Positions 457 to 27,783 of a stretch of DNA of 50,417 nucleotides are shown piece after piece. The stretch comes from Rhodospirillales bacterium (GTDB lineage: Bacteria > Pseudomonadota > Alphaproteobacteria > ATCC43930 > CGMCC-115725). Numbering within the stretch: position 1 is the stretch's first letter; each line of letters opens with the position of its first letter. The stretch spans positions 1 to 50,417 of the forward strand of contig JADGGZ010000003.1 of NCBI GenBank assembly GCA_019689675.1. Reading direction: 5' to 3'. A model generated the notes under the pieces. The model did not search any database. It worked only from the letters and a program-made list of their open reading frames with translations, and was not told where the DNA came from. Both the position numbers and the translations under genes were made by a program.

Positions 457-885
457 ATGACCATGCCCAAGGCACTCTCACCCGAAGCGGGGTCGCGCAC
501 GGTCGAGGGAACGGTCAACCTGCTCATCGTCGAGGACGAGGCCCTGGTCGCATCCTATATCCAGGACGTGCTCGAGGAATCGGGATTTACCATTGCCGGC
601 GTCGCCTCGACGGGGCCGGAGGCGCTTTCCCTTGCCGGCGACGTCGCCCTCACCTTGGCCCTCGTCGACATCAAGCTCGCCGGGCCGATGGACGGGATCG
701 AAGTCGCCAAGCTCTTGCGCGAGCGGCACAGCGTCCCTTCGATCTTCCTTTCCGGGATGCACGATCCCGAGACGATGCGACGGGCTCAGACCGCCGACCC
801 GCTGGGCTTCCTTCAGAAACCCTTCCGCCCGAGCCAGGTGTTCAACGCGCTTGAAAAGGCGCGCGCCAAGCTCAAGCGCACGTGA
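457..885 (+). CDS. Single-domain response regulator (receiver only)
   Basis: This 142-residue protein is one CheY-like receiver domain preceded by about 20 disordered residues, with no output domain. The acidic pocket is at E26-D27-E28, the phospho-acceptor is Asp71 (LALVDIKL), the switch Ser is Ser99 (IFLSG) and the invariant Lys is Lys121 (LQKPF). The ATG at 457 is preferred over an upstream TTG at 427 because of the G-rich stretch just before it. An EcfG-type promoter lies directly upstream. Single-domain receivers of this kind act as phosphate shuttles or sinks, and several modulate the general stress response in alphaproteobacteria. The partner kinase is not in the window. Confidence 0.88.
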   Translation: MTMPKALSPEAGSRTVEGTVNLLIVEDEALVASYIQDVLEESGFTIAGVASTGPEALSLAGDVALTLALVDIKLAGPMDGIEVAKLLRERHSVPSIFLSGMHDPETMRRAQTADPLGFLQKPFRPSQVFNALEKARAKLKRT

Positions 886-955
886 CGGCGAAGGCGACCA
901 GCCAGCCCACCACGAGCACAATCACCATCTCGCGATCGATCGCCTGCTCGCACAT
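872..955 (-). CDS. 27-residue membrane microprotein under an apparent SOS promoter
   Basis: This short frame encodes MCEQAIDRE followed by one hydrophobic helix (about residues 10-27, containing VIVLVVGWLVAFAV) and then stops. An ideal ribosome binding site, AAGGAG at 968-963, sits 7 bases before the ATG. Upstream is a GTTC-N7-GTTC LexA box placed exactly between a -35 and a -10 element. Its 3' end overlaps that of the receiver gene by 14 bases in antisense. I recognise no sequence family. Size, topology and promoter recall SidA, the 29-residue SOS-induced division inhibitor of Caulobacter, but homology is not claimed. Confidence 0.65.
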   Translation of the reverse strand: MCEQAIDREMVIVLVVGWLVAFAVTCA

Positions 956-981
956 TTCCGATCTCCTTTTGTTCTGGTAAA

Positions 982-1011
982 TTTTTAGAACGTTCAGCGA
1001 ACGTCCGTCAA
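982..1011 (-). promoter_or_regulatory. Predicted LexA-controlled (SOS) promoter
   Basis: Reading the minus strand, TTGACG (1011-1006) serves as -35 and TAAAAA (987-982) as -10, with an 18-base spacer. The spacer holds GTTC-GCTGAAC-GTTC (1002-988), an exact match to the alphaproteobacterial LexA operator GTTC-N7-GTTC. LexA bound there would cover the promoter. The -10 starts 27 bases upstream of the microprotein ATG. Confidence 0.65.
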
Positions 1012-1075
1012 TCCCCAGGCTGAAATCCCGCGCCGGCGCAAGCAATCGTCAGCGGATCGGCGTTAGCGTGCGGCA

Positions 1076-1708
1076 ATGGCGACGACGGACTCGATCGGGC
1101 TTTCGCGCCGGGTCAATTATGCCGTGCTGGGCGCGACAGTAGCCTTCGCCGCGGGCGGCGCGGCGGCGTTGATTCCGCTTGCCGTAGATCTCCCGAGCCC
1201 GGGGTCGACGATCGCCATCCTCGTCTACGGGGCGACGCTCCTCGCATGCGCCCTCTGCTCGTTCCTCTACAACACGTTCGAAGGCTCCCGCCGGCGCCGT
1301 CTCCTTCGGAGACTCGACCACGCCTGCATCTTTCTCTTCATCGCCGGGACCTACACGCCCTTCGCCGCGATCGCGCTCGAGAACTGGGGAACCGGTCTCC
1401 TCGTCTTCGTCTGGTGCCTTGCGGTTCTCGGGGCCGGCCTCAAGGTCCGGGTGGGAGACGCCTGGGACCGGCCGTTCGTCTGGATCTACCTGGCGCTCGG
1501 GTGGGTCTTCCTCGCCTTCTTCGACGAGCTGATGCTCGCGCTCGACGCGACGGCGCTCGCCCTTCTCGTCGGCGGCGGGGCGGCCTACACGGTCGGCGCC
1601 CTCATCTATCACCGCGACATCGGGCATTGGACCGATCCGCTCTGGCACACCTTCGTCCTCGCCGGAACCGCAGCGCATTTCTTCGCCGTGATCGAGGTCG
1701 CGGCATAG
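1076..1708 (+). CDS. Hemolysin III / PAQR family membrane protein
   Basis: The 210-residue protein has about seven predicted membrane helices. It carries the family signatures SFLYNTF (63-68), LDHACIFLF (80-88), GTYTPF (91-96) and a final helix with His191 and His201. Ser62, Asp81/His82 and the C-terminal histidines match the metal-site pattern of the hemolysin III/PAQR superfamily. Bacterial members are integral membrane proteins linked to membrane-lipid homeostasis; direct haemolytic activity is doubtful. Length is typical. It stands alone between the microprotein promoter region and secA, and no strong ribosome binding site is seen before the ATG. Confidence 0.88.
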   Translation: MATTDSIGLSRRVNYAVLGATVAFAAGGAAALIPLAVDLPSPGSTIAILVYGATLLACALCSFLYNTFEGSRRRRLLRRLDHACIFLFIAGTYTPFAAIALENWGTGLLVFVWCLAVLGAGLKVRVGDAWDRPFVWIYLALGWVFLAFFDELMLALDATALALLVGGGAAYTVGALIYHRDIGHWTDPLWHTFVLAGTAAHFFAVIEVAA

Positions 1709-12849: not shown

Positions 12850-13138
12850 TCGCGCTCCTCTTGCATCGAGAGCATGTTCCCGTTATGTTCCTTGGCGGGC
12901 CGAGTGCTGAAGGGCCGAGGCGGGACGACTTCCGCGGCAACTTCGGCGCGTGCGGCGCGACGGGAGGGGCCTGCATTTTCCCTGCATTTGCAGGGAATGG
13001 GATCGCGGCGGCGGTGTGTCGCGACAGCTTCCGACGAATCCGTTTGCCTCCTCCCCGGCTGCGCGCGACCATCCTTTCGGGAGGTGCCCGGCGGGCCTCG
13101 TCGGGCGTTGACGAAATTGCCTGAAGGAGGCGCTCCGC
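12850..13138. other. Non-coding stretch before the EF-G paralogue
   Basis: I see no convincing gene here. It holds a perfect 9-base palindrome (12978-12997), a direct repeat of CCTGCATTT (12970-12978 and 12981-12989) and, at its right end, the strong ribosome binding site GAAGGAGG of the EF-G paralogue. It probably contains that gene's promoter, and I cannot point to clear -35/-10 elements. Confidence 0.5.
12978..12997. repeat. Palindrome TTCCCTGCA-TT-TGCAGGGAA
   Basis: Two perfect 9-base arms flank a 2-base centre, about 140 bases upstream of the EF-G paralogue. The core CCCTGC/GCAGGG recurs in the hairpin after that gene at 15182-15209, so the two may belong to one family of intergenic palindromes. 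An operator role is also possible. Confidence 0.55.
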
Positions 13139-15169
13139 ATGGCAAACACACCCGCGGCCCCACGCTGCGCCGCGCTGGTCGGTCCCTACCTTTCCGGTAA
13201 GACGACTCTGCTCGAAGCCCTGCTCTCCGCGAGCGGCACGATCAACCGGCGCGGCGCTGTCAAGGACGGCAACTCGGTCGGTGACCATTCCGTCGAGGCG
13301 CGCACGCGCCAAATGTCGACGGAAATCAACGTCGCGACCACGAAATACCTCGGCGACCCCTGGACGATCCTCGACTGCCCTGGCGCGGTCGACCTCGCAT
13401 GGGAGACGCAGAACGCGCTGCTCGCCGCGGATGTCGCCGTGATCGTCACGGAACCCGACACGGAGCGGGCGCTGACCCTCGCCCCGCTCTTCAAGTTCCT
13501 CGACGACCACGGTATCCCGCATATGGTCTTCATCAACAAGCTCGACGCCTCGCCGCTGCGGGTGCGCGATGCGGTGGCGGCGCTCCAGAGCGTCTCGCAG
13601 CGCCCGCTCGTGCTGCGCGAGGTGCCGACCCGCGGGAAGGACGGCGAGGTGACGGGCTACGTCGATCTCGTCTCCGAGCGCTGCTACAAGTACAAGCCCG
13701 GCCAGCCCTCCGACCTGGTGCCGCTGCCGGAAGGGTTCTGGGATCAGGAAGGCACCACCCGCTCCACCCTCATCGAGAAGCTCGCCGACTACGACGACAA
13801 GCTTCTGGAGCAGCTTCTCGAGGATGTGGCGCCGTCGAAGGAGGAGATCTACCGCCACCTCGCCAACGACCTCGCGCGCGACCTCATCGTCCCGGTGTTC
13901 CTCGGCGAGGCGCTGCACGAGGGCGGCGTGCGTCGCCTCTGGAAGGCGCTCCGGCACGAGACGCCTGCGCCCGCCGAGACCGCCAAGCGCCTCGGGATCG
14001 AACCCGGCGCCGACACGATCGCGACGGTCGTCAAGACCTACCACGCGCCGCATAGCGGCAAGCTCAGCCTCGTGCGCGTCTGGTCGGGCCAGGTCGCCGA
14101 AGGCATGATCCTCAACGGAAGCCGGGTCTCGGGGGTGCTGCGCCTCCTCGGCGCGGCGCAGGAGAAGGTGCCGGCGGCGGGCGTCGGCGAGGTTGTCGCC
14201 CTCGCCCGTACCGAGGCGATCGCTACCGGCGACGTGCTGACGACCTGCGGCAAGGCGCCGACGGTGCCGCGCCCCGAGAAGCCGCAACCGATCTTCGGCA
14301 TGGCGATTCACGCCGAGAAGCGCAGCGACGACGTGAAGCTGTCGGGCGTCGTGCAGAAGCTGATGGAGGAGGACCCGACTCTTCAGATCGACCACAATCC
14401 CGATACCGGCGAGTTCGTGCTCCGGGGCCAGGGAGAAGTCCATCTCCAGATCGCGCTCGACCGCATGCGACAGAAGTACAATCTCCCGGTGGTCGGGCGG
14501 CGGCCGTCGGTCGCCTACAAGGAGACGATCCGGCGCGGCACCCAGCAGCACGCGCGTTTCAAGCGCCAGTCGGGCGGGCACGGCCAATTCGCGGACATCA
14601 CGATCGAGGTGAAGCCGCTGCCCCGCGGCTCCGGGTTCTCCTTCACCGACTCCGTCGTCGGCGGCGCGATCCCGCGCAACTACATCCCCTCGGTCGAAGA
14701 AGGGATCATCGAGTACTGCAAGCAGGGGCCGCTCGGCTTTCCGGTGGTCGATATCGCGGTCAACCTCGTCACCGGGCAGTTCCACAGCGTCGACAGCTCG
14801 GACATGGCGTTCAAGACCTGCGCCCGGATGGCGATGCAGGAGGCGCTTCCGAAATGCGAGCCGGTGCTGCTCGAGCCCATCCATCATGTCGAGATCACGG
14901 TGCCGAACGCGTTCACGAGCCGCGTCCAGCGGATCGTTTCGCAGCGCCGCGGCCAGCTCCTCGGCTATGACGCGAAGCCCGGCTGGGACGGCTGGGACGT
15001 CGTCGCCGCGCACATGCCTCAGGCCGAGCTGCACGACCTCATCGTCGAGCTGCGCTCGGCAACGCTCGGCGTCGGCACCTTCACCGAGCGGTTCGACCAT
15101 CTCCAGGAACTGACCGGGCGTCTCGCCGAGCGCGTCCTGGCCGAGCGGCAGCCGCACGCGGCACAGTGA
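13139..15169 (+). CDS. Elongation factor G-like GTPase (paralogue)
   Basis: The 676-residue translational GTPase has G1 (GPYLSGKTTL), G3 (DCPG) and G4 (NKLD), followed by domain II, III, IV and V segments. The domain IV/V region ends in QRRGQLLGYDAKPGWDGW and the FTERFDHLQELTGRLAERV tail. It is shorter than canonical EF-G (about 690-700 residues) and is not next to the str operon genes rpsL, rpsG or tuf. It therefore matches the second, non-essential EF-G-type proteins found in many bacteria. The strong Shine-Dalgarno GAAGGAGG supports the start. Its exact ribosomal role is unknown. Confidence 0.9.
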   Translation: MANTPAAPRCAALVGPYLSGKTTLLEALLSASGTINRRGAVKDGNSVGDHSVEARTRQMSTEINVATTKYLGDPWTILDCPGAVDLAWETQNALLAADVAVIVTEPDTERALTLAPLFKFLDDHGIPHMVFINKLDASPLRVRDAVAALQSVSQRPLVLREVPTRGKDGEVTGYVDLVSERCYKYKPGQPSDLVPLPEGFWDQEGTTRSTLIEKLADYDDKLLEQLLEDVAPSKEEIYRHLANDLARDLIVPVFLGEALHEGGVRRLWKALRHETPAPAETAKRLGIEPGADTIATVVKTYHAPHSGKLSLVRVWSGQVAEGMILNGSRVSGVLRLLGAAQEKVPAAGVGEVVALARTEAIATGDVLTTCGKAPTVPRPEKPQPIFGMAIHAEKRSDDVKLSGVVQKLMEEDPTLQIDHNPDTGEFVLRGQGEVHLQIALDRMRQKYNLPVVGRRPSVAYKETIRRGTQQHARFKRQSGGHGQFADITIEVKPLPRGSGFSFTDSVVGGAIPRNYIPSVEEGIIEYCKQGPLGFPVVDIAVNLVTGQFHSVDSSDMAFKTCARMAMQEALPKCEPVLLEPIHHVEITVPNAFTSRVQRIVSQRRGQLLGYDAKPGWDGWDVVAAHMPQAELHDLIVELRSATLGVGTFTERFDHLQELTGRLAERVLAERQPHAAQ

Positions 15170-23775: not shown

Positions 23776-25182
23776 TCAGACCACTTCGCGAATGATGGCG
23801 GGAGCCTCGACCCCGCCCGCGCAGGCGACCCGATTGCGACCGCCTCGCTTCGCGGCGTAGAGCGCCTCGTCGGCACGGTTCAGCAATGCCGCCGGCGTCT
23901 CATGGTCGGTGCGCGCCGTCGCCACCCCGACGCTTATGGTTACCGGGATCTCGCCCGCCGCCGCCGAGATCCGGATCGGCTTTTCCGCCACGCCGCGCCG
24001 GAGCCGCTCCGCGACCGAGTAGGCGACGGCAAGCCCGGTCTCGGGCATCACGATCAAGAACTCCTCGCCTCCATACCGGGCAACGAGGTCGAAACTACGC
24101 ACGTCGCGCTGCGCCCGCCGCGCCACCTCGATCAGGACCTCGTCGCCGGCGGCATGGCCGTGCCCGTCATTGACGCGCTTGAAGTGGTCGATGTCGAAAA
24201 GGAGCACGGCGACGCCCTGGCCGCCCTCCTCGTGGCGCGCCAGCAGGCTGTCGAGATGCGCTGCGACATAGCGCCGGTTGTAGAGCCCGGTGAGCGGGTC
24301 TGTGAGCGCGAGGCTGAGGCTCCTGCGGTAATTGTCGCGCAGGCGGTCGCTGAGGCGCTTGCGGCGGATCTGCGTGCGCGCCCGGGCGAGCAGCTCGTTC
24401 TTCTCGAGCGGACGCAGGATGTAGTCGTTGGCGCCGAGGTCGAGCCCCTTGGCGAGGCGCGGGAGCTCGCATTCCTCGCCGACGAGAAGGATCGGCACCT
24501 GGCGCGTGCCTTCGGCGGCGCGAACCTGGCTGACGAGCCGGAGCGTATCGCCGCTGCCGAGCGACATGCCGGCGATGAGAAGGTCCGGCTCCGTCTCGAG
24601 CGCCCGCAGGGCCTCGCGGGGCTCCGCGTGGGTCGCGATGTCGGACGCGATCGGCGCCAGCATCTCGACGATCTTGGCGGCCGCGAAGCGGCTGTCCTCG
24701 ACGAGAAGAATGCGCGCGGGACGGTCGTCCTCAGCGCTCGCGAGATCCGCGCCCGGCAGCTCGGCGAAGCGGTTGTAGACCTCCTCGCGAAGTCGCCACT
24801 CGTCCATCATGCGCTTCAGCCGAGCGAGCGAGCGCACGCGGGCGAAGAGCGCGATATCGTTCACCGGCTTCGTCAGGAACTCGTCCGCGCCCACTTCGAG
24901 CCCGCGCAGACGGTCGGCGACGTCCGACAGCGCCGTGACCATGACCACCGGGATGGCGGCGGTCCGCGGATCCGCCTTGAGGCGCCGGCACACCTCGAAC
25001 CCGTCCATCTGCGGCATCATCACGTCGAGGAGAACGAGATCGGGCTGCTCCGCCTGCGCGATGCGCAAGGCGTCGATGCCGTTGCTCGCGGTGAGGACGT
25101 CGAAATACTCGGCGGTGAGCTTTGCTTCGAGGAGCTTTACGTTGACGTCGACATCATCGACGACGAGGACTCGCGCCGACAT
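23776..25182 (-). CDS. pleD: PleD-family diguanylate cyclase response regulator
   Basis: The 468-residue protein has a full receiver domain with Asp in LVLLDVMMP, a second receiver-like domain in which that Asp is absent (LLIAGMSLG), and a GGDEF domain with GGEEF. The inhibitory I-site RSFD stands five residues before it. This is the architecture of PleD, which makes cyclic di-GMP at one cell pole on phosphorylation and controls the swarmer-to-stalked transition. The degenerate second receiver is the dimerisation adaptor. It follows divK by 9 bases. Confidence 0.95.
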   Translation of the reverse strand: MSARVLVVDDVDVNVKLLEAKLTAEYFDVLTASNGIDALRIAQAEQPDLVLLDVMMPQMDGFEVCRRLKADPRTAAIPVVMVTALSDVADRLRGLEVGADEFLTKPVNDIALFARVRSLARLKRMMDEWRLREEVYNRFAELPGADLASAEDDRPARILLVEDSRFAAAKIVEMLAPIASDIATHAEPREALRALETEPDLLIAGMSLGSGDTLRLVSQVRAAEGTRQVPILLVGEECELPRLAKGLDLGANDYILRPLEKNELLARARTQIRRKRLSDRLRDNYRRSLSLALTDPLTGLYNRRYVAAHLDSLLARHEEGGQGVAVLLFDIDHFKRVNDGHGHAAGDEVLIEVARRAQRDVRSFDLVARYGGEEFLIVMPETGLAVAYSVAERLRRGVAEKPIRISAAAGEIPVTISVGVATARTDHETPAALLNRADEALYAAKRGGRNRVACAGGVEAPAIIREVV

Positions 25183-25191
25183 CGCCGTTCG

Positions 25192-25599
25192 TCAGGCGAG
25201 AAAGCGCTCGACCGTCTCGAGAAAATTGGCGACCGAGATCGGCTTTGCGATGTAGGCCTCGCACCCGCCCTCGCGGATCTTCTCCTCGTCGCCTTTCATC
25301 GCGAAGGCCGTGACCGCGATGATCGGAATCGAGCGGAGATCGTCGTCCTCCTTGATCCACTTCGTGACCTCGAGCCCTGAGACTTCAGGCAGCTGGATGT
25401 CCATGAGGATGAGGTCGGGGCGGTGATTGCGCGCCAGCTTCAGTGCTTCCATCCCGTCCTTGGTCTGCAGGGTTTCGTACCCGTGCGCCTCGAGGAGGTC
25501 ATGGAAGAGCTTCATGTTCAGGTCGTTGTCCTCGACGATGAGGACGGTCTTCGCCCCATGGCCGTTGGGCTGCTGTCCGTTGACGTTGCTCGCGGTCAT
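25192..25599 (-). CDS. divK: Cell-cycle response regulator DivK
   Basis: DivK is a stand-alone receiver that controls the DivJ/PleC/DivL-CtrA circuit. The 135-residue protein has [20 protein letters not shown], the phospho-acceptor in [10 protein letters not shown] and IAVTAFAM then IAKPI. It is about 12 residues longer than the usual DivK because of an Asn/Gln/Gly-rich N-terminus. The ATG at 25599 is preferred over an upstream start. The pair divK-pleD is a well-known alphaproteobacterial operon. Confidence 0.95.
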
Positions 25600-25647
25600 G
25601 GGTGGCGGTTTCCTACGGCGATTGGCCAACCACATAAGCTGTCCAGC

Positions 25648-25690: not shown

Positions 25691-26569
25691 ATGCGTATCG
25701 GAGTCGATCTCGGCGGCACGAAGATCGAGGCCATTCTGCTCGATGACGAGGGGACCGTGCTGGCCCGCCGGCGTGTTCCGACGCCCGCAGGCAGCTACGA
25801 GGCGACGCTCGCGGCGATCCGCGGTCTCGTGACAGAGCTCGAAACCGGAATGGAGACGAAGGCGAGCGTCGGGGTCGGCATGCCCGGCGCGATCTCGCCC
25901 AAGACCGGGCTCGTCAAGAACGCCAACTCGACATGGCTCAACGGGCGCCCCTTCGACCGCGATCTGACCGAGCTGCTGGGGCGCCCCGTCCGGTTCGCCA
26001 ACGACGCGGATTGCTTCGCCCTCTCCGAGGCGACCGACGGCGCCGCGGCCGGGCTTCCGGTCGTGTTCGGCGTCATTCTCGGCACGGGAGTCGGCGGCGG
26101 GATCGTGATCGCCGGAAAACTTCTCTCCGGCGCCGATGCGATCGCGGGGGAATGGGGGCACAATCCGCTGCCATGGCCGAGCCAAGCCGAGCTTCCGGGT
26201 CCGCCCTGCTACTGCGGCAAGCGCGGCTGCATCGAGACTTGGCTCTCAGGTCCCGGCCTCGCGAGGGACTACGGCGGAGGCGCGGACGCGGCCGAGATCG
26301 CGGCGCGGGCGGAAGCGGGCGAGCCGGGCGCCGCCGCCGCGCTCGAGCGTTACGCCGATCGGCTCGCGCGGGGGCTCGCCAGCGTGATCAACGTCATCGA
26401 TCCGCACGCGGTGGTGCTCGGCGGCGGGCTTTCGAAGATCGCGGCTCTCTATGAGCGCGTGCCGGACCTTCTGACGCGCTACGTTTTCTCGGACCGGGTC
26501 GCCGCGCGGCTCCTCCCGCCGCTGCACGGCGATTCCTCGGGCGTGCGCGGCGCAGCATGGCTCTGGTGA
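25691..26569 (+). CDS. ROK family sugar kinase (fructokinase/GlcNAc kinase-like)
   Basis: The 292-residue kinase begins MRIGVDLGGTKIEAILLDD, the ATP-binding phosphate-1 motif. It has the ROK signature with GTGVGGGIVI, EWGHN and the zinc-site CYCGKRGCIE. ROK kinases phosphorylate fructose, mannose, glucose or N-acetylglucosamine. The substrate is not decided by these motifs; the overall pattern is like Mak/NagK. The 3' end overlaps dinB by 13 bases. Confidence 0.9.
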   Translation: MRIGVDLGGTKIEAILLDDEGTVLARRRVPTPAGSYEATLAAIRGLVTELETGMETKASVGVGMPGAISPKTGLVKNANSTWLNGRPFDRDLTELLGRPVRFANDADCFALSEATDGAAAGLPVVFGVILGTGVGGGIVIAGKLLSGADAIAGEWGHNPLPWPSQAELPGPPCYCGKRGCIETWLSGPGLARDYGGGADAAEIAARAEAGEPGAAAALERYADRLARGLASVINVIDPHAVVLGGGLSKIAALYERVPDLLTRYVFSDRVAARLLPPLHGDSSGVRGAAWLW

Positions 26570-27783
26570 GGCTCTGCCGCGATTGCGGCGCGGAACCGCC
26601 CGAAGTCGCACGGCGCTGCGCCCAATGCGGATCGACCCGGCTCGTCGCCCATCCCGAGCTCGGCGCGCTCGCGATCGCGCATATCGATTGCGATGCGTTC
26701 TACGCCAGCATCGAGAAGCGCGACGACCCGACGCTCGCGGACAAGCCGGTCATCGTCGGCGGCGGCAAACGCGGCGTCGTCGCGGCCTGCTGCTATGTCG
26801 CCCGCCTCTCCGGCGTGCGCTCTGCGATGCCGATGTTCAAGGCGCTGCGGCTCTGCCCCGATGCCGTCGTCATTCCCCCCGACATGGCGAAGTACAAGGC
26901 GGCCGGCCGCGAAGTGCGCCGGCTGATGGAAGAAACGACGCCCCTCGTCCAGCCGCTCTCGATCGACGAGGCGTTCCTCGACCTCACCGGGACCGACATC
27001 CTCCACAAGGGGCCGCCGGCGCGAACCCTGGGGCTCCTCGCGCGCCGCATCGAGCGCGAGGTCGGCGTCACCGTCTCGATCGGGCTGAGCTACAACAAGT
27101 TCCTCGCGAAGATCGCGTCCGACCTCGACAAGCCGCGCGGCTTCGCCGTGATCGGACGCGCCGAGGCGGAAAGCTTTCTCGCCCCCCGCCCGGTCGGGCT
27201 CCTCTGGGGCGTGGGCGCGGCCCTCCAGCGCCGGCTCGCCGCCGACGGCATCACCACGATCGGGCAGCTTCGGGCATACCGGGAGCAGGAGCTCGTCGGT
27301 CGGTACGGCTCGATAGGGCGCCGGCTCTATCGCTTCGCCCGCGGCGAGGACGACCGGCGGGTCGATCCCGACGCGCCGACGAAGTCGATCTCGTCCGAAA
27401 CGACGTTCGCGCAGGATACCGGCGATGGCGCGCTGATCGAGGCGGAGCTGCGCCCCCTCTGCGCCAAGGTCGCACAACGCCTCGTCGCCGCGGGGCTCGC
27501 GGGCACCACGGTGACGCTGAAGCTCAAGACCGCCGATTTCAGGATCCGTACCCGTGCGCACCGGCTCGATCGCCCGACGCAACGGGCGGAGGTCCTGCTC
27601 GAAACCGCGCTTCTTCTCTTGGCGCGCGAGCTCGACGGCACGCGTTTCCGCCTCGTCGGCATTGGCGCGGACGGGCTCGTGCCGGGACGCGAGGCCGATC
27701 CTCCCGGCCTCTTCGATCAGCAGCTGGGCTTGGGCAGCGCTTCGATCTCGTCGAGCCGGGCCTTGATCGTAAAGTCGCTGTAG
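26557..27783 (+). CDS. dinB: DNA polymerase IV with N-terminal zinc ribbon
   Basis: DinB is a Y-family translesion polymerase. The 408-residue protein has the catalytic motifs HIDCDAFYASIEKRDDP and PLSIDEAFLDLTG, the fingers and palm, and a little-finger domain. Cys7, Cys10, Cys21 and Cys24 form a rubredoxin-like zinc ribbon before the polymerase core, an alphaproteobacterial variant. It starts inside the ROK kinase gene and has no promoter or LexA box of its own that I can see. The last 67 bases overlap the convergent eipB gene. Confidence 0.93.
   Translation: MALVRLCRDCGAEPPEVARRCAQCGSTRLVAHPELGALAIAHIDCDAFYASIEKRDDPTLADKPVIVGGGKRGVVAACCYVARLSGVRSAMPMFKALRLCPDAVVIPPDMAKYKAAGREVRRLMEETTPLVQPLSIDEAFLDLTGTDILHKGPPARTLGLLARRIEREVGVTVSIGLSYNKFLAKIASDLDKPRGFAVIGRAEAESFLAPRPVGLLWGVGAALQRRLAADGITTIGQLRAYREQELVGRYGSIGRRLYRFARGEDDRRVDPDAPTKSISSETTFAQDTGDGALIEAELRPLCAKVAQRLVAAGLAGTTVTLKLKTADFRIRTRAHRLDRPTQRAEVLLETALLLLARELDGTRFRLVGIGADGLVPGREADPPGLFDQQLGLGSASISSSRALIVKSL

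Follow-up and report, generated by a model that had tools for sequence, protein, structure and literature searches.

A conserved microprotein gene behind a LexA-type box in uncultured Alphaproteobacteria: a possible SOS-controlled brake on cell division

Single-helix microproteins under SOS control have been found in few bacteria and largely lack a common sequence. SidA of Caulobacter crescentus, a 29-residue SOS-induced protein of the inner membrane, is described as interacting with FtsW (PMC4211646), and the LexA motif published for Caulobacter is GTTC-N7-GTTC (PMC12700426). The transmembrane part of YneA is reported to contact FtsW TM7 and its LysM domain to be needed for inhibition; the same source lists ChiZ, SosA, and SidA as predicted at low confidence to bind FtsW (PMC13396833). 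TisB is described as requiring its central K12 and Q19 together with a C-terminal lysine (PMC11449926). Both TisB, which has 29 residues, and DinQ are described as LexA-controlled membrane peptides of Escherichia coli. The length of DinQ is about 27 residues. To such microproteins we add a family defined from genomes alone, together with its regulatory site. To our knowledge, division control after DNA damage has been little studied in Alphaproteobacteria outside Caulobacter.

The locus described here lies near the start of a 50,417-nt stretch of a Rhodospirillales genome, referred to below as the window. A preliminary description, made from the letters alone, had proposed an SOS-type promoter with a LexA box between its hexamers, an AAGGAG ribosome-binding site, and a 27-codon frame, and each of these elements was located on the minus strand as proposed (Table 1). 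The gene is unannotated. Its frame overlaps the 3' end of a convergent response-regulator gene by 14 nt, and the two promoter hexamers, as read from the sequence, are separated by 18 nt. A consensus promoter scan of positions 700..1200 found no promoter and did not accept the TTGACG/TAAAAA pair. The GTTC-N7-GTTC pattern occurs twice in the window against an expectation of 1.26, so that the box by itself proves nothing.

Table 1. Positions of the microprotein gene, its regulatory elements, and the convergent gene in the window.
Feature	Position	Strand	Details
Microprotein gene, ATG to TGA	872..955	minus	27 codons, 27 aa, MCEQAIDREMVIVLVVGWLVAFAVTCA; ATG at 955, TGA 874..872
LexA-type box, GTTC-N7-GTTC	988..1002	minus	GTTCGCTGAACGTTC; inside the spacer between the -35 and -10 hexamers
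-35-like hexamer TTGACG	1006..1011	minus	Read from sequence
-10-like hexamer TAAAAA	982..987	minus	Directly after the box; read from sequence; weak
Ribosome-binding site AAGGAG	963..968	minus	7 nt before ATG; read from sequence
Convergent single-domain CheY-like response-regulator gene	457..885	plus	Receiver-domain matches in PDB; start 457 chosen, open frame begins at 427

The strongest evidence for the gene comes from its relatives. A first tblastn-type search with the 27 residues against the 39 genomes of the family returned eight further places at E values from 0.02 to 1.3; the open frames around three of these are no longer than 30-38 residues, and GTTC-N7-GTTC boxes occur in the nearby DNA. 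A nine-row profile run over the 43 genomes of the order then added three more members, and the resulting 12-row profile separated 12 members (E <=1.7e-9) from a next match at 0.0995 in the same 43 genomes. Homologues of 25-35 residues are thus present in 12 of the 43 genomes of the order, all 12 falling among the 39 of the family, and in 6 of 11 genera; of the 21 family genomes with a completeness of 90% or more and a contamination of 5% or less, 9 carry one. A blind profile built from the other 11 homologues recovered the window frame at E 2.5e-8 with a next best match at 2.7 (955 six-frame stretches), and with leave-one-genus-out profiles each of the 12 members scored better than all 1000 of its own shuffles.

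The way in which these sequences vary is that of a protein-coding gene. Length differs only before an invariant aspartate, and from this residue to the stop there are 21 residues in every member; DNA identity averages 63% over this core and 27% over the next 63 nt. Synonymous and nonsynonymous codon differences number 20 versus 7 in the three pairs of genus g9, 16 versus 17 in three g6 pairs, 9 versus 6 in the g7 pair, and 4 versus 12 in a divergent g4 pair, counts that indicate purifying selection clearly in the closest set and in blurred form in distant pairs. A protein family, its selection as protein, and a conserved promoter box are demonstrated at the level of sequence. We regard the microprotein gene and its SOS-type site as real beyond reasonable doubt, and the family as very probably real. 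The preliminary description had made its case depend on conservation of frame and box in relatives, and both are kept in the 12 gene-bearing genomes.

Control by LexA draws on a separate line of evidence. All 12 homologues carry GTTC-N7-GTTC in gene orientation, its first base 47-60 nt ahead of the start codon, and the promoter alignment has no fully invariant columns other than the eight that make up the two half-sites. Since the homologues were found by their protein, the conserved box constitutes independent evidence. Upstream of lexA the pattern recurs in reverse orientation at 30 of 30 loci (34 genomes have a match to the LexA domain), and upstream of recA it recurs at 11 of 30; it is lacking from the 240 nt examined at recA of the window genome. 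Together, the box in every homologue and at every lexA locus strongly supports the proposal that this family is under SOS-type control. The family also shows that a LexA box can tag very short genes of the kind that annotation tends to miss. Among the 20 stretches read around other box sites of the window genome few resemble classical SOS genes, which leaves its SOS regulon ill defined. Across 15 genomes of the order, GTTCYNNNTNTGTTC was counted 105 times and its backward reading 14 times, which makes the pattern a clean LexA-site probe for the order. The second box of the window, GTTCCCGTTATGTTC (12876..12890, plus strand), has a spacer, CCGTTAT, that ranks 6 of 77, better than that of the microprotein gene, and lies about 250 nt upstream of a gene starting at 13139 which we take to encode an elongation-factor-G-like protein. 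At another locus, on contig C396 of genome G000, a box overlaps the start of what is presumably a PdeM-like phosphoesterase gene.

The window copy is the least typical of the 12 members. Its spacer, GCTGAAC, scores -14, whereas the other 11 members, which themselves helped build the matrix, score between 5.1 and 12.5, and the window's box comes 62nd among the 77 sites of the genome; this copy may consequently respond weakly. It also departs from the family in that its box is followed by TAAAAA, where a TATGCTA-like stretch comes directly after the box in most homologues, and in a C-terminus that reads CA instead of L-T/S/I. The box is in addition a palindrome, ACGTTC-GCT-GAACGT (990..1004, minus strand), which none of the other members shows. 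These departures could mean that the gene is real and that its window copy has left LexA control wholly or nearly so, the palindrome serving another repressor or the copy drifting. We consider such an account unlikely: neither half-site is damaged, they stand at the distance kept throughout the family, a chance box at this place would be expected about once in 10,000 (77 sites in 4.22 Mb), and the frame itself is intact. LexA probably still controls the window copy. The question concerns regulation and overlaps with the readings of function that follow.

The protein itself is simple in outline. Its 15-residue mean hydropathy reaches 2.95, and charged residues are absent after position 9 in every member. 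D7, L14, W18, A21, and T25 are invariant, as is the start, and 11 of 12 members keep G17 and L26. On a helix of 100 degrees per residue the five invariant positions span 60 degrees, an arrangement matched by 0.06% of choices of 5 from 21, and the conservation moment, which peaks near 100 degrees, is significant over positions 7-27 (P 0.017) and over positions 12-27 (P 0.00075). The alignment suggests a single-pass helix with one docking face: the placement of D, L, W, A, and T on a single 60-degree face points to a docking surface, and conservation on one side favors a specific protein partner over a pore. Two NCBIfam families resemble these proteins weakly at the profile level, MmpA (NF046122; best E 0.01, 2 of 12 members) and a WLR motif membrane protein (NF053726; E 0.001, 1 of 12 members). 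Membership in MmpA was rejected, the window protein scoring 14.7 bits, far under the curated cut-off of 32, and both resemblances probably reflect generic helix similarity. Pfam and PHROGs gave weak matches only.

The function that we favor, with confidence about evenly divided between it and all else, is that of a LexA-controlled division brake, a single-pass inner-membrane protein of 27 residues made from behind a LexA-type box. LexA would sit between the -35 and -10 hexamers and block the promoter until DNA damage frees it. The protein would then be made from a short leader and insert as one helix; with D7 placed where the helix enters the membrane, its L14-W18-A21-T25 face would dock on a helix in some other membrane protein. 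The likeliest target appears to be the complex for septal wall synthesis (FtsW or its partners), because the known SOS-induced small membrane division inhibitors, SidA and YneA, converge on FtsW; division would pause during repair, and the job of SidA would be done by an unrelated sequence. The residues L14, W18, A21, and T25 offer an explicit surface for mutation. The microprotein shares small size, a predicted membrane location, and SOS-type control with YneA of Bacillus subtilis and SosA of Staphylococcus aureus, both SOS-induced small membrane division inhibitors; in contrast to YneA, it could not hold a LysM domain within 27 residues.

The comparison with SidA required that SidA be located first. 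The divK gene of the window (PDB match 1m5t) picked out a genus, g293, in which one genome was 100% identical, and which we infer to be Caulobacter. Of the 108 boxes in genome G457, 40 were examined, and exactly one leads a hydrophobic frame of 18-65 residues with a ribosome-binding site; this frame has 29 residues, and genome G485 has its counterpart behind the same box. As length and LexA-type control match those published for SidA, the two frames were taken as candidate SidA, an identity resting on length, control, and genus. The family profile gave both candidate copies -1.0 bits, a score equaled or bettered by 291 and 278 of 500 shuffles, respectively. Because candidate SidA scores like its shuffles, the family is similar to SidA in kind and by this test not homologous. 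The preliminary description had likened the microprotein to SidA, and the likeness stands for microprotein size (27 versus 29 residues), a single hydrophobic helix, control through GTTC-N7-GTTC, and occurrence in Alphaproteobacteria; it fails for sequence, in which candidate SidA is unrelated, and is an analogy only. Elsewhere in the window, divK adjoins what we take to be a pleD-like gene, and a presumably DinB-like polymerase gene lies nearby (23776..25635, minus strand, and 26557..27783, plus strand).

Nothing in the sequence itself points to FtsW over another membrane partner, and the main alternative partner is a linked sensor kinase. In all members but the window genome, 11 of 12, an OmpR-type response regulator is encoded downstream in the same orientation; in 6 of these its gene comes next, across gaps of 78-123 nt that contain no run of five T, and a sensor kinase gene follows it wherever the examined sequence reaches that far. 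Six of the 12 members have a convergent CheY-like regulator beside the microprotein gene. The kinase PhoQ is a target of small proteins, MgrB and SafA among them, which provide a model for a connector in which the microprotein would bind the membrane sensor kinase encoded downstream and couple DNA damage to its regulon. This synteny is the basis of the proposal, and a one-faced helix would suit a kinase helix as well as FtsW. Yet no such two-component system is found in the window, the CheY-like gene intervenes in 5 of 11 members, the regulator of genome G013 is about 2 kb away, and synteny alone is no proof of interaction. We hold a connector to be unlikely. It is slightly less probable still in its fullest form, a new LexA-controlled microprotein family that in most members grips the adjacent sensor kinase by its one-sided helix and switches a regulon upon DNA damage. 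We know of no alphaproteobacterium in which SOS is wired to signaling through such a microprotein.

Size, a single hydrophobic helix, and LexA-type control are also shared with TisB and DinQ, and the microprotein could accordingly be an SOS-induced membrane toxin of their type, which would lower the membrane potential and cause dormancy. The residues described as necessary for TisB, K12, Q19, and the C-terminal lysine (PMC11449926), stand against this assignment, for the microprotein family has neither a charged residue in its helix nor a lysine at its C-terminus. A search for antisense RNA at Rfam gathering thresholds, limited to RNAs that Rfam lists so that unlisted ones are possible, found no match in the window and the 11 homologue loci; the 47-60 nt between box and start would leave little room for a structured TisB-like leader; and conservation on one face argues for a specific partner. 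We consider a toxin quite improbable. That a chance frame stands beside a chance box, as the expected frequency of the pattern in the window would allow, is rejected as next to impossible, since frame and box are conserved in 12 homologues.

All carriers of the microprotein that were found belong to a single family of uncultured Alphaproteobacteria. No homologue turned up in the 4 genomes of the other family of the order, and nothing clear was detected beyond the carrier family among 387 genomes of the class, in a profile search that scored at most 20 candidates per genome and could have missed weak members. This search listed 20 genomes at E <=0.1, of which 3 belong to the family itself; the other 17 gave weak matches (E 0.009-0.097), mostly inside long frames, and were judged to be chance. 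In the collection genome_contigs a box-plus-core pattern returned 22 stretches. Ten are alphaproteobacterial members with exactly 21 residues from aspartate to stop, all of them already known and titled as Rhodospirillales or Alphaproteobacteria MAGs; the other 12, with other frame lengths, were judged to be chance. Viral contigs gave 0 matches, and plasmids queried with one member protein gave none. Short DNA matches of 24-34 nt in genomes G011 and G013 were set aside, those of G013 not lying at its family locus. A search of the literature on SOS microproteins, SidA, and LexA regulons found no description of the family, which is weak evidence of novelty given that most subscription journals lay outside the search.

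Even within the family the 12-row profile detects no homologue in 27 of 39 genomes. A survey of 102 of the 105 boxes in 15 genomes whose genera or species lack the gene found no SidA-sized hydrophobic frame with a ribosome-binding site behind them. As a positive control, the same filter recovered 11 of the 12 members with the strict box pattern, missing that of the window, and all 12 with the loose one. The lack of the gene in most family genomes and of a convincing substitute implies that the group does not depend on the microprotein as an obligatory division checkpoint. Loosened filters brought up some weaker frames of 32-61 residues behind boxes in the 15 genomes. At two loci of G011, which lacks the microprotein, similar frames of about 51-61 residues ending in ...VPVYRL... 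stand behind strong LexA-type boxes (L203 and L254), and these perhaps represent another small SOS family.
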